Source: an archaeon GW2011_AR15 (GTDB taxonomy: Archaea; Nanobdellota; Nanobdellia; Woesearchaeales; GW2011-AR15). Taken from it: DNA of 56,851 bases. Below, piece by piece: positions 1,173 through 28,697 of this stretch. Position numbers and translations under genes: made by a program. Each line of letters starts with the position of its first letter. The stretch's first letter is position 1. The DNA lies in NCBI GenBank assembly GCA_000830295.1, contig CP010425.1, positions 238,033 to 294,883 of the forward strand. Reading direction: 5' to 3'. The notes under the pieces are model-generated. The model ran no database searches and was not told where the DNA came from. It was given only the letters and a program-made list of their open reading frames with translations.

Positions 1173-2018
1173 TTAGTGGATTGATGCCCTCTCGTTTGAT
1201 GTGCACACATAACCGGGAGCATCTGCTGCTTTTGTTTCTACCCTCATAGGCCTGCTTCCTGCACTATACTCGTCTTTATCCAGCACCCTGACCAGCAAAG
1301 AGCACAGGCCTTTTTCAGGGTCAGCACCAAGAGTTACCTGTCCTGTCGGCAGATATGTCACCATGTTTATGGCCTGATTAACTTCATCCGGCACAATGAC
1401 TCTCGGATTTGGCGTGGACCTGAGAAACACAGGCCATAGAGTAGCAGAGCGGCCGTAAAGGGTTATCCCTGTAATGTTCTCGATAAGCTGCTCTTCCCAT
1501 TCCGGCTCGGAAAGGATATAATCATACAATTCTTTCCTTACTTCCCCTGTACCTCCCTCTTCATTGCAGGCAATATAGGAATACTCCTGGCTGGCAGGGC
1601 TATAACTCCCTGAAGTCACCAGACCTACCCGGATTGCCCTCCTCAACAGCTGCCGGCACGCATCTATATCCTCTTTGGATTCTTCTCCCCATTTGTATGA
1701 ATTGGCTGCCATACGGCCAACCACAATAGGGTTTGGTATCCTGATATTGCTGGAACCGTTTCTTGCCATACTTAGCCAGTCATCGTAAGACTGAATCTCC
1801 CTGACAAGAATGTCGTTTTCCTGAATAAGTTCTTTTTTCTCCAGTTTTTCCAGAGTTTTGTCATCAATATCCCCTCTTAATAGAAGAGAAGGATAGAGAA
1901 CAACATCTCTTGGTCCTGACATTATAAATCTGTAGAACTCCGGGAAAAGAAAGGGCTGATTCTCTCCTCCATCCAATTCCGAAGCTATTTCTCTTGTTGT
2001 ATTGATTTGTTTTACCAT
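1173..2018 (-). CDS. Hypothetical protein, 281 aa
   Basis: I do not recognise the family. The protein looks soluble, with no membrane segment or signal peptide, and is rich in charged residues. The start at 2016-2018 follows an excellent ribosome site (AAGGAGATGATGA), the same extended Shine-Dalgarno type used by the gene upstream. It lies between a small membrane protein and hisS on the same strand with short gaps (19 and 65 bases), so the three may form one transcript. Coding status is supported by length, ribosome site and composition like its neighbours. Confidence 0.75.
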   Translation of the reverse strand: MVKQINTTREIASELDGGENQPFLFPEFYRFIMSGPRDVVLYPSLLLRGDIDDKTLEKLEKKELIQENDILVREIQSYDDWLSMARNGSSNIRIPNPIVVGRMAANSYKWGEESKEDIDACRQLLRRAIRVGLVTSGSYSPASQEYSYIACNEEGGTGEVRKELYDYILSEPEWEEQLIENITGITLYGRSATLWPVFLRSTPNPRVIVPDEVNQAINMVTYLPTGQVTLGADPEKGLCSLLVRVLDKDEYSAGSRPMRVETKAADAPGYVCTSNERASIH

Positions 2019-2037
2019 TTTTCATCATCTCCTTGTT

Positions 2038-2439
2038 TTATTTTTTGTATTCCGGAGAAGGGCATTCTCCTATCTGCTCTGCATTCATTATAATATAGCC
2101 TAGCAGTGTTGTACTTATCCTATACTCACAGCCTTCCTGAAGGGGTTTATCATACAGGAAAAAGCCGCCCACAGGTTTCCCCTGAAGATCAATCTCCTGC
2201 CCTACCACTCTAACTATCCCGTCAGGGCCGAGGACACTATAATCAGCATATCGGAACTCGGAATACCAGCCCCTATCCATTAGGTATGCCCTTGTCGTAT
2301 CTTCCCTGCCTATTACCCTCCCTTCAATATTTCTCAGGGGGAGAGTAACAAGGCATGCTGCTGCAATAGCAAGTCCTGCTGCTGATATGAGTAATTTGTC
2401 CTCTATGCTTATTTTATTTAGTTTAGCTAATGTTTTCAT
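2038..2439 (-). CDS. Small membrane-anchored hypothetical protein, 133 aa
   Basis: Unrecognised protein with a short charged N-terminus, one membrane segment near residues 17-35 (LLISAAGLAIAAACLVTLPL) and a polar domain of about 95 residues with two Cys. Three in-frame ATGs lie close together (2448, 2445, 2439). I chose 2439 because the only ribosome site, GGAG, abuts or crowds the first two but lies 9 bases before the third. Both the ribosome site and the start fall within the 3' arm of a long inverted repeat (2433-2534), which suggests translational control. Function unknown. Confidence 0.65.
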   Translation of the reverse strand: MKTLAKLNKISIEDKLLISAAGLAIAAACLVTLPLRNIEGRVIGREDTTRAYLMDRGWYSEFRYADYSVLGPDGIVRVVGQEIDLQGKPVGGFFLYDKPLQEGCEYRISTTLLGYIIMNAEQIGECPSPEYKK

Positions 2440-2534
2440 TCTCATCATCTCCGCCGCTTAATGCCCGGCCGGCGCTTTGGTTATCTAATTAACAAAACCA
2501 GGACTGGAGATGATGATGCACTCGAGAACGAAAA
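2433..2534 (-). promoter_or_regulatory. Long inverted repeat masking the ribosome site of the 133-aa gene
   Basis: On the minus strand, TTTTCGTTCT (2534-2525) and CATCATCTCC (2515-2506) can pair with GGAGATGATG (2452-2443) and AGAATGAAAA (2442-2433). This gives about 20 base pairs, one of them G-U, with a 9-base bulge and a loop of about 53 bases. The 3' arm holds the GGAG ribosome site and all candidate start codons of the downstream gene. The 5' arm starts 8 bases after the 3' end of tRNA-His. A switch or thermosensor role is inference. Confidence 0.55.
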
Positions 2535-2542
2535 TAGTTGAG

Positions 2543-2614
2543 GGCGACAGGCGAGAATCGAACTCGCGTCTTAGGATCCACAGTCCCAAATTCTGCCACT
2601 AAACTACCGTCGCC
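2543..2614 (-). tRNA. tRNA-His (GTG)
   Basis: A cloverleaf can be drawn: encoded G-1, acceptor GCGACGG paired with CTGTCGC, discriminator C73 opposite G-1 (the His identity pair), D arm GTTT/GAAT, anticodon stem TGGGA/TCCTA around loop CTGTGGA, and T arm GCGAG-TTCGATT-CTCGC. CCA is not encoded. The 5' end is one base from the stop of the racemase gene (stop at 2616-2618), so the tRNA is probably cut from a longer transcript. hisS lies further down the same strand. Confidence 0.95.
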
Positions 2615-2615
2615 A

Positions 2616-3329
2616 TTAAACATCAGAATCACCCTTAACAGAATATTCTACAGTTGCCTCGGCTAAAATCTGAAGTGTGTCATACAATTTTAAATCCGAA
2701 TCTTTCTGGCTTATCAAAAGAGGAAGCTCTGTGCACCCCAATATAACTGCATCGCATCCCTTTCCTCTAAATTGAGAAATTATTTTCAAAATAGATTTTT
2801 TATCAGACTCAAGTTTTTTCCCTGCAAGGATATTCAGGATAATCTTAGTTATTTTTTCCTGCTGTTTCGCGGTCGGGAGTTCAGAAGTTTTTCCGAGATT
2901 GCTTAGTTTTTTCTGGTATACCCCGGAATTAATAGTCTGCCTTGTTCCAAGTATCCCGGTTTTTCCTGAACCAATTTCCTCCAGTGTTTCATCCACTATG
3001 CTCAGAAAAGGCAGTCTGAAATCAAGAGAGGAAAAAAGTGTGCCTGCTGAATTGCATGGGCTCACGATAAATTCAGCGCCAACAGCTGTAAGCTTATCAA
3101 CTCCTTTCTGGAGTGAATTAATTACTTTAGGGTCTGTCGTTCTTACAATCTCAGGCAGAGGAAGGTTATAGATGAATATCTCAGGGTAATCAAAATCATT
3201 TGCACAGCCATATTCTCTCTGGAATATGCTGATAATTCTTTTATAGAATTCCGCAGTTGCCTCTGGCCCCATGCCGCCAAGAATGCCAATTGCTCTGATG
3301 ACGTAAATCTCCAGACTGGTTACTGGCAA
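2616..3329 (-). CDS. Aspartate/glutamate racemase family protein
   Basis: Cofactor-independent amino acid racemase of the Asp/Glu family. Visible motifs are the N-terminal GILGGMGPEATAEFY, the first catalytic Cys in SPCNSAG and the second in LGCTELPLL; length (about 227-237 aa) fits aspartate racemase. The open frame begins at a TTG (3329) that has no ribosome site. Family members usually start just before IGILGG, and a GGAG sits about 8 bases before an ATC codon at 3297-3299 that would give MRAIGILGG, so the true start is uncertain. The product may supply D-Asp or D-Glu; substrate cannot be read from sequence. Confidence 0.85.
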   Translation of the reverse strand: MPVTSLEIYVIRAIGILGGMGPEATAEFYKRIISIFQREYGCANDFDYPEIFIYNLPLPEIVRTTDPKVINSLQKGVDKLTAVGAEFIVSPCNSAGTLFSSLDFRLPFLSIVDETLEEIGSGKTGILGTRQTINSGVYQKKLSNLGKTSELPTAKQQEKITKIILNILAGKKLESDKKSILKIISQFRGKGCDAVILGCTELPLLISQKDSDLKLYDTLQILAEATVEYSVKGDSDV

Positions 3330-3409
3330 TGCCTCTGGAACTGGAATCCGGCTTAGTTAAAATAGACGTAGAACTACTGACAATGAATACAATCTTCAGG
3401 CTGGTTACT
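3307..3409. repeat. Pair of 18-base direct repeats before the racemase start
   Basis: On the minus strand AGTAACCAGCCTGAAGAT (3409-3392) and AGTAACCAGTCTGGAGAT (3324-3307) match at 16 of 18 bases and lie 85 bases apart. The downstream copy carries the GGAG that could serve the racemase. They could be paired operator sites or a small duplication; sequence alone does not decide. Confidence 0.5.
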
Positions 3410-3418
3410 GATTCTCAT
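3374..3418 (-). CDS. Possible leaderless micro-ORF upstream of the racemase
   Basis: Reads MRISNQPEDCIHCQ and ends with TAG. A TATA-like GTTTTATATACC (3440-3451) lies about 27 bases before its ATG, so a transcript for the racemase would start close to this ATG. The peptide holds a CxxC (CIHC). It may be chance; only position supports it. Confidence 0.2.
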   Translation of the reverse strand: MRISNQPEDCIHCQ

Positions 3419-3484
3419 AGCAGATGGGAATGTTTAACTGGTATATAAAACTTTTGTGATTTGTAACTTACAAGTGAATATTAG

Positions 3485-3499
3485 AAAAGTTTAAATAAA
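3485..3499 (+). promoter_or_regulatory. TATA-box promoter for the Phe hydroxylase leader
   Basis: AAAAGTTTAAATAAA is a good archaeal BRE/TATA match. Initiation about 25 bases downstream falls at 3515-3521, the first base of the Tyr-rich mini-ORF, making that ORF leaderless. Confidence 0.6.
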
Positions 3500-3520
3500 A
3501 TAGTATTATTTCTTTCTCCC

Positions 3521-3571
3521 ATGCACAAGCCAGCAGCACAAAGCAAGTATTCTTATTACTATTATTGCTAG
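3521..3571 (+). CDS. Tyr-rich 16-aa leader peptide (candidate)
   Basis: Reads MHKPAAQSKYSYYYYC then TAG. Five of the last seven residues are Tyr (TAT/TAC codons). It lies on the predicted transcript start of the phenylalanine hydroxylase gene, whose reaction product is tyrosine, and ends 80 bases before that gene. Sequence after its stop can form alternative stems. This resembles the leader peptides of bacterial amino-acid attenuators. The stretch is also pyrimidine/A-rich low-complexity DNA, so chance is possible. Confidence 0.45.
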   Translation: MHKPAAQSKYSYYYYC

Positions 3572-3573
3572 CT

Positions 3574-3614
3574 GAACCTTTCCCTTTCTGAATAAAGCAT
3601 GGGAACTAGGTTCC
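3574..3614 (+). promoter_or_regulatory. Alternative stem-loops between leader ORF and Phe hydroxylase
   Basis: Long form: GAACCT (3574-3579) with AGGTTC (3608-3613) and TTCCC (3580-3584) with GGGAA (3601-3605), 11 pairs with a 2-base bulge. Short form: GGAAC (3602-3606) with GTTCC (3610-3614). The two share bases and exclude each other. A ribosome at the leader stop codon (3569-3571) would cover the 5' arm of the long form. No clear T-tract follows, so if it is regulatory it may act on translation. Confidence 0.4.
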
Positions 3615-3651
3615 GGTGTGCATTTCTAAAAAACTATTCGGAGGTATTAAA

Positions 3652-4419
3652 ATGAACTTTACAAATGAACAAAACAAAACATGGAGAACGCTTTTTGCCA
3701 GATTGAGGCCTGTTGTAGAGGAGCACGCCTGCTCGGATTACTTAGCTGGATTCAGAAATCTGAAAATGGATCCGGAAAGAATCCCTTCGGTGGAGGAACT
3801 AAATGAACAGATTGCGCCGAGAACTGGCTGGAAAATCGAGAGGACAAAAGTGAGATACAGTGATGCTGTGCCTTGGTACTTGAAATTTTCAGAGAGGATA
3901 TTCATGATAACAGATTATATGAGAACTTGGGAAGAGCTTGATTTTACTCCAGAGCCTGACATGTTCCACGACATATTCGGCCACCTGCCTTTCATGACGC
4001 TGAAGCAATACACAGCCATACAGGACATGTTCGCCCCTGCTTTCATAAGGGCGACTCTTGAGGAGCAGGAAAACATAAAGAGGCTGGCATGGTTCAGCAC
4101 TGAGTTCGGGCTGATAAAGGAAAACGGGGAGGTAAAAATATTCGGGGCGGGAATAATGTCCTCAAAAGGCGAGATAGAAAATGTAGTATCCGGAAAAGTC
4201 CCCATTCTCCCTTTCACAATAGAGAACGTGCTGAAAAGGAACAAGGCAATCTACAGCTTCAACAAGGAGCTTTTTATCTTCAATTCAGTTGAAGAGCTGA
4301 AGCAGGAACTCGGGAAATACTTTGACCCTATTGCAGCAAGAGAAAAGATAATAATCCAGAGAAAAGAAAAGATTGTGGACAGGGAGCTGAAAGACCTGAA
4401 GAGACCTATATTTCCCTGA
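3652..4419 (+). CDS. phhA: Phenylalanine 4-hydroxylase (aromatic amino acid hydroxylase)
   Basis: Pterin-dependent non-haem iron monooxygenase that converts Phe to Tyr. The 255-aa protein matches the single-domain bacterial type. Iron ligands are visible as His106 and His111 in PDMFHDIFGHLP and Glu151 in WFSTEFGL; GAGIMSSKGE matches the conserved YGAGLLSSxGE segment. The start at 3652 follows GGAGGT with ideal spacing; the longer frame from 3616 has no ribosome site. The gene sits behind a Tyr-rich mini-ORF and overlaps the end of the convergent flavoprotein gene by 14 bases. The family is uncommon in archaea, so transfer from bacteria is likely (inference); the pterin used is unknown. Confidence 0.93.
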   Translation: MNFTNEQNKTWRTLFARLRPVVEEHACSDYLAGFRNLKMDPERIPSVEELNEQIAPRTGWKIERTKVRYSDAVPWYLKFSERIFMITDYMRTWEELDFTPEPDMFHDIFGHLPFMTLKQYTAIQDMFAPAFIRATLEEQENIKRLAWFSTEFGLIKENGEVKIFGAGIMSSKGEIENVVSGKVPILPFTIENVLKRNKAIYSFNKELFIFNSVEELKQELGKYFDPIAAREKIIIQRKEKIVDRELKDLKRPIFP

Positions 4420-5823: not shown

Positions 5824-5901
5824 ATGAAATCTGTTCCAGAGAAGGCTATGGGAAAAGGCAAAGGCAAGGATAAGGACGACGATGACTGTCCTTTCTGCTG
5901 A
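5824..5901 (+). CDS. 25-aa micropeptide ending in CPFC
   Basis: Begins MKSVPEKAMGKGKGK and ends DKDDDDCPFC. The ATG has a strong ribosome site (AAAAGGAGG) 7-8 bases upstream and a TATA box (AAAGATTTAAATAG) near 5766, so it is the first cistron of the thiol-redox operon. The following gene has its own ribosome site overlapping this stop (TGAGGTGAAGAATG). The layout is a basic Gly/Lys segment, an acidic run and a terminal CxxC. It could be a redox substrate or carrier for VKOR, or a metal-binding peptide. No family recognised. Confidence 0.6.
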   Translation: MKSVPEKAMGKGKGKDKDDDDCPFC

Positions 5902-28522: not shown

Positions 28523-28610
28523 GCCTCAGTAGCTTAGCAGGTGGAGCGGTCGGCTGTTAACACCTATGAAAGAAACCGACAGGTCACCAGTTCAAATCTG
28601 GTCTGAGGCG
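28523..28610 (+). tRNA. tRNA-Asn (GTT) with a 15-base intron
   Basis: Acceptor GCCTCAG/CTGAGGC with G73, D stem GCTT/GAGC, anticodon stem GTCGG/CCGAC, T arm ACCAG-TTCAAAT-CTGGT. The anticodon loop CTGTTAA carries GTT and is followed by 15 extra bases before the 3' half of the stem. With cleavage at the usual archaeal site after position 37 the intron is 28560-28574. Mature length 73. CCA not encoded; a T-tract follows. Confidence 0.94.
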
Positions 28611-28697
28611 CTTTTTTTTCTATGTGGGCTTGAACGAAGTGAAACCCACCTGTTTCGTTCAACCATTTCTTAAAGGGTTGGTCTGAGGCGCTTTTTT
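28599..28697 (+). repeat. Second copy of the tRNA-Asn 3' end
   Basis: TGGTCTGAGGCGCTTTTTT occurs at 28599-28617 (tRNA 3' end plus T-tract) and again at 28679-28697. Between them TTGAACGAA (28630-28638)/TTCGTTCAA (28653-28661) and GTGGG/CCCAC form competing stems. A duplicated tRNA 3' end is the usual scar of a tRNA-targeting integrase, here only 80 bases apart. Confidence 0.6.

Follow-up and report, generated by a model that had tools for sequence, protein, structure and literature searches.

Attenuation by leader peptides is known as a classic mechanism of bacteria, and the locus described here raises the question of whether it may also be at work in an archaeon. In the window that we have analysed, a stretch of 56,851 nucleotides from the genome of the archaeon GW2011_AR15, a gene of the phenylalanine 4-hydroxylase family (phhA) is preceded by a short open reading frame (ORF), MHKPAAQSKYSYYYYC, in which five of the last seven residues are indeed tyrosine, as the first-pass annotation of this DNA had reported. 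That annotation read the arrangement as the layout of a leader-peptide attenuator, little known in archaea. On the whole we favour, with some reserve, the reading that phhA was acquired horizontally and that the ORF encodes its leader peptide, which senses tyrosine, with a read-out that is more likely translational. If this is true, an amino-acid-sensing leader peptide operates in archaea. The locus is brief and well defined, and offers a candidate for such attenuation that can be tested. In the open papers covered we found no amino-acid leader-peptide attenuator in any archaeon, in agreement with the remark on novelty, although one tool paper states in general terms that attenuation by upstream ORFs (uORFs) occurs in archaea (PMC10219788).

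The phhA product carries a Biopterin_H domain (140 bits, Pfam) and has PheH as its top PDB match, and PheH models rank first for it in NCBIfam with scores under their cut-offs. Judged by these matches it is a biopterin-dependent hydroxylase, closest to phenylalanine 4-hydroxylase, which upholds the earlier identification of the gene. The genome (1.16 Mb, a single contig, 96.8% complete) also encodes a pterin-4a-carbinolamine dehydratase (PCD), and chorismate synthase was not found in it by a search that was positive in 14 of 14 control genomes. Because this enzyme is absent, phhA may be the sole source of tyrosine in the archaeon, which seems incapable of de novo aromatic amino acid synthesis; with PCD present, the cell probably takes up phenylalanine and converts it to tyrosine. 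A feedback of tyrosine on phhA would thus be sensible, and its control would have a clear purpose.

Table 1. Features of the phhA locus; positions are those of the window.
Feature	Position	Strand	Basis
Archaeal promoter (BRE/TATA) AAAAGTTTAAATAA, core TTTAAATA at 3490-3497	3485..3498	+	12.1 bits, genome-derived matrix
Leader ORF MHKPAAQSKYSYYYYC, probably leaderless	3521..3571	+	Sequence, shuffles, promoter; similar leaders in Anaerolineales and Patescibacteria
Proposed stall site: five Tyr codons clustered as Y S Y Y Y Y	3548..3565	+	0/20,000 shuffles
Hairpin B (3574-3584 with 3601-3605 and 3608-3613)	3574..3613	+	-14.6 kcal/mol, z -2.2
Hairpin C (3602-3606 with 3610-3614), the alternative to B and incompatible with it	3602..3614	+	Forms once the 5' arm of B is masked
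Helix D, hypothetical: 3585-3594 paired with 3635-3644, which would cover the ribosome-binding site of phhA	3585..3644	+	Weak, post hoc folding
phhA ribosome-binding site GGAGG	3640..3644	+	Sequence
phhA (ATG at 3652), phenylalanine 4-hydroxylase family, bacterial (Chloroflexota-like) kin	3652..4419	+	Domain, structure and family-model matches; under NCBIfam equivalog cut-offs

The leader ORF lies on the same strand as phhA, from an ATG at 3521 to a TAG at 3569-3571, and its codons are ATG CAC AAG CCA GCA GCA CAA AGC AAG TAT TCT TAT TAC TAT TAT TGC TAG. At least five Tyr in seven residues, counted in any short ORF, was reached in none of 20,000 dinucleotide shuffles of positions 3467-3651, four in seven being reached in 0.08%, and again in none of 10,800 shuffled upstream regions. 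Real upstream sequences were also compared, using the window and 12 stretches of 20 kb from the same genome (286 predicted genes), in which 108 genes with at least 120 nt free upstream gave 237 short ORFs: five Tyr in seven occurs in one of these, which is the present leader, and four in one other. We have further searched for promoters with a matrix trained on the TATA-like boxes of the other genes of this genome, with phhA left out. The site at 3485-3498 (genomic tail p 4e-5) ranks beyond the 90th percentile when compared with the top-scoring sites of other genes and is the only strong plus-strand site before phhA, the runner-up scoring 3.1 bits. In the sampled genome, TATA-like boxes form a sharp peak 25-34 nt upstream of start codons and only 86 of the 286 genes have an SD-like motif, so that leaderless starts seem to be usual here. 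Since the leader ATG follows the promoter core by 31 nt, a spacing that fits this peak, the transcript should begin at, or adjoining, that ATG, as had been proposed from the TATA box, and the leader ORF is probably leaderless. The distance from the core to phhA is 162 nt; the promoter thus appears to be set for the leader ORF, leaving phhA dependent on its GGAGG, although a leaderless start, the usual kind in this genome, would have been open to phhA too.

The relatives of phhA were found by an alignment query of genome contigs, a single-protein query having found none, and no relative was found in the viral contigs searched. The closest kin are genes of Anaerolineales, 60-64% identical, and it is on account of this similarity that the archaeal gene was probably acquired from bacteria. 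A Tyr-cluster ORF precedes phhA in ten distinct Anaerolineales loci and ends 69-81 nt upstream of the gene; the leaders start with MVKPVIPTYAYLYYAETT..., MAKHTVSVYAYYYAETT..., MVKHALYVYAYYYAETT..., MVKHTLYVYAYYYAETT..., MAKPVTSAYTYLYYAETT..., MNKHAGYVYVYYYAETT..., MAKRNPRNLYRPYYYAVTH..., MAFQNGSRDYAYYYAEP..., MAFQNGSHAYVYYYAES... and MSNVNVSYTYSYYYANG..., and where they can be aligned their core Tyr codons vary at the wobble base only. Between leader and gene lies an intrinsic terminator, CCACAGG...CCTGTGG followed by T5-7, in which three pairs are changed on both sides in a compensatory manner. In the Patescibacterium locus L096, where phhA is 45% identical, MTYKTTVTYSYYYLASYGG and its terminator are followed by the Tyr-rich MDIFKDHQKTIRYYLYYDTRYRS and a second terminator. 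The leader ATGs of the Anaerolineales and of L096 stand 8-10 nt past a -10-like box (TAGAAT, TATAAT or TACAAT in the Anaerolineales), so that the Anaerolineales leaders look leaderless too at these predicted start sites. As a control, 264 other genes of the relatives' loci were examined: they have 963 short ORFs upstream, none with four Tyr in seven. Antiterminator duplexes in the bacterial leaders appear as pairing in single folds, no better than in shuffles, and RNAalifold gave no conserved antiterminator after the 3' arm was removed. As far as their sequences tell, these leaders and terminators are textbook Tyr attenuators; Rfam holds no family at them, and the archaeal locus has in this way brought to light an attenuator for Tyr upstream of phhA in Anaerolineales and Patescibacteria. 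Leader-peptide attenuators for Trp and Phe are described in the open papers covered, in which no described Tyr leader before phhA was found.

Some further bacterial candidates were set aside and are outside the ten: the LRYYYL short ORF of L004 apparently lies within an upstream coding frame, the VDKIGKYY short ORF of L137 was judged spurious or doubtful, and LDKVYYNYRKAGRY of L140 is doubtful, having a TTG start and overlapping promoter-like sequence, though a terminator follows. No Tyr leader was seen before those phhA genes of Chloroflexi whose frames are about 340 codons long, nor before actinobacterial phhA. The Patescibacterium locus L096 has its two tandem Tyr-rich leaders upstream of phhA (2995), each with a terminator after it.

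A conserved Tyr-codon ORF upstream of phhA in related genomes, which the first-pass annotation had named as support, is found in ten Anaerolineales loci and one Patescibacterium, but not in the archaeal L045, the closest archaeal homolog (60% identical) and, besides the window gene, the sole phhA of this type in archaea; the more distant phhA genes of the order are also without a leader. Within the order the Biopterin_H domain is rare (8 of 353 genomes) and it is absent from both same-genus genomes. In a tree of the short-type phhA the window gene is not firmly placed, and a single clade of this gene with the leader-bearing Anaerolineales is not rejected (p-AU 0.129). The gap from the leader stop to the gene is 80 nt in the archaeon, versus 69-81 nt in the Anaerolineales, and a YSYYY motif is common to the archaeal leader, L141 and L096. 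Position, motif and gap fit a common descent of the leader, and a convergent origin is also conceivable; the leader DNA had no match in the family except for the adjoining minus-strand element. With chance rejected, the promoter so placed and the same layout in the nearest phhA genes, a Tyr-codon leader peptide before the archaeal phhA is strongly supported.

What follows the Tyr cluster is another matter. The Anaerolineales and Patescibacterium leaders resemble the archaeal one in the gene downstream, the Tyr cluster and the apparently leaderless ATG, but they run on for 10-19 codons beyond the cluster and have an intrinsic terminator, whereas the archaeal leader stops one codon past its cluster and no U-tract lies between it and phhA, the longest T run being 3. 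Given this, the archaeal copy is not a terminator-type attenuator, and since a terminator was looked for and not found we keep the locus out of the terminator-based class. Indeed, the archaeal termination factor aCPSF1 bound tracts of U4 and longer, not U3, in Methanococcus maripaludis (PMC8716108), which makes a terminator read-out unlikely. The two stems that had been described as mutually exclusive both exist in our folding and do exclude each other; they are just slightly above chance, as z is only -2.2 for hairpin B (equally stable in 6 of 200 shuffles) and -1.3 for the whole leader relative to shuffles. No Rfam 15 covariance model, T-box or other, matched the leader at its gathering score, the other strand giving a chance-level match (E 2.7). 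Hence, of the proposed attenuator layout, the Tyr leader before phhA stands, but the archaeal copy has no U-tract and weak stems.

Using masked folding we are able to follow the predicted structure as a ribosome covers successive lengths of the leader, its leading edge being assumed to reach about 15 nt beyond the P-site codon. With the ribosome up to Tyr14, B is predicted to form and the SD to be fairly accessible. Once the ribosome has reached Tyr15, and as far as the stop codon, B is blocked, in line with the idea that a ribosome on the stop masks the 5' arm of the longer stem, and 3585-3594 is predicted to pair with 3635-3644 across the SD. Opening 3641-3645 costs 0.95 kcal/mol in the first state and 3.72 kcal/mol in the second, a post hoc difference that is as large in 21 of 1000 shuffles (p about 0.02) and that varies between 1.1 and 2.8 kcal/mol with the stretch folded; the hidden state itself is ordinary, as high a cost being found in 614 of 1000 shuffles. 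The folding thus yields a predicted switch with the expected sign, and it is possible that a stalled ribosome leaves the ribosome-binding site of phhA unmasked.

By its layout the archaeal leader would be of the same kind as the bacterial Tyr attenuators and act like a leader-peptide attenuator, and we infer leader translation, stalling and regulation in the archaeon. Transcription would begin at or beside the leader ATG, as the promoter position indicates, and the ribosome would read the leader from a bare 5' end. When charged tRNA-Tyr is scarce, it would stall at the Tyr codons and phhA expression would rise; when tyrosine is plentiful, it would reach the stop codon and expression would fall. 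The read-out in the bacterial relatives would be the transcription terminator. As the archaeon has no terminator, a translational read-out is more likely there. A ribosome at the stop would block B and allow helix D, which is speculative, to cover the ribosome-binding site of phhA; a stall on earlier Tyr codons would leave B free and the site more open. A leader with a bare 5' AUG is translatable by ribosomes of either domain, which would account for the survival of such a switch when it passes from one domain to the other. The Tyr leader of the archaeal gene, together with the same kind of leader and a terminator in its closest bacterial relatives, suggests that the archaeon retains a modified form of a bacterial switch that senses tyrosine. 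A fuller history, in which the sensor crossed from bacteria with phhA and was rebuilt with an archaeal promoter, the leaderless leader being kept and the terminator giving way to a translational switch, is offered tentatively, as a possible course of events.

Of the other explanations, the one that fares best, though we hold it to be unlikely, is that the leader ORF is a relic that arrived with phhA from bacteria and lost its terminator, with no regulation left in the archaeon. The bacterial origin of gene and layout, the lack of a terminator and the weakness of the stems would all agree with this, but the Tyr cluster, the start position and the gap have been kept while the remaining DNA diverged beyond recognition, and an archaeal promoter stands at the right distance from the leader ATG, not from phhA. 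Distinctly less probable is an archaeal-type transcriptional attenuator, in which the stalled or released ribosome would govern factor-dependent termination in the 80-nt gap: the longest T run of 3 and the binding of aCPSF1 to U4 and longer but not to U3 (PMC8716108) weigh more than a layout inherited from terminator-type attenuators and the pyrimidine-rich stretch CCTTTCCCTTTCT at 3577-3589 in the gap. Finally, that a low-complexity TAT/TAC stretch merely happened to fall in a short ORF before a Tyr-forming gene, against which we had been cautioned, is very improbable, for although the stretch is of low complexity and another sampled ORF has four Tyr in seven, no shuffle reached five and the cluster coincides both with the Tyr leaders of the nearest phhA homologs and with the promoter position.

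The tyrosine-sensing leader peptide that we favour can be compared with described systems. The trpL, pheL and hisL attenuators likewise consist of a short ORF rich in codons for the regulated amino acid, with hairpins before the gene, but have the terminator that the archaeal copy is without. In Corynebacterium glutamicum the aroR leader (Phe-Tyr-Phe) of aroF also places aromatic codons before a gene of the aromatic pathway, yet it is bacterial, serves another enzyme and is reported to respond to Phe, not Tyr (PMC11802643). The leaderless trpL of Sinorhizobium meliloti shares a leader ATG that is the 5' end of the transcript and differs in being bacterial, in sensing Trp and in using a transcription terminator (PMC7298713). 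Translational attenuators of the ermCL type resemble our proposal in that stalling on the leader alters access to the downstream ribosome-binding site, but they are induced by drugs and not by lack of an amino acid, and the archaeal switch is a prediction only (PMC10219788). In archaea themselves, short ORFs upstream of longer genes have been described in 5'UTRs of Haloferax volcanii and Methanosarcina mazei, with no amino-acid sensing named in the parts of these papers considered here (PMC4983044, PMC11456600).

Several minor observations were made along the way. In 134 upstream regions of the genome sample, 15 short ORFs begin with ATG and have a TATA box 25-33 nt before them, against 5.7 expected from shuffles; this archaeon may have many leaderless upstream ORFs. 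Divergent from the leader, on the minus strand at 3362-3466, lies a 105-bp element that is 82% identical to one of the same-genus genome G002 (L021 1694-1798), compared with about 69% for coding DNA, the gene context being different. It contains a TATA box and a short ORF, MRISNQPEDCIHCQ, at 3374-3418 (minus strand), which shares nearly every base, wobble positions included, with its G002 version MKISNQPEDCIHC. The direct repeat CAGTAACCAGYCTGRAGATT (minus strand, 3310-3330 and 3390-3410) is present in two copies here and one in G002, with no exact match in 58 other relatives. Also in G002, L021 has at about 1850-4142 two radical-SAM-like ORFs (assigned by eye; MKQ.EEK starts with a short frame) and L008 of G089 has a Biopterin_H ORF, all without a clear in-frame start; the ORFs of both genomes overlap a short ORF begun in another frame, each by a +1 shift, which would reflect assembly error or recoding. 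Elsewhere in the window an SD-led short ORF, MKSVPEKAMGKGKGKDKDDDDCPFC, with a CxxC motif at its end, lies at 5824-5901 (plus strand) directly before a VKOR-family gene, an archaeal SRP RNA is present, and the sequence at 28523-28611, called tRNA-Stop (tta) by ARAGORN, reads as a tRNA-Asn (GTT) with a short archaeal intron.
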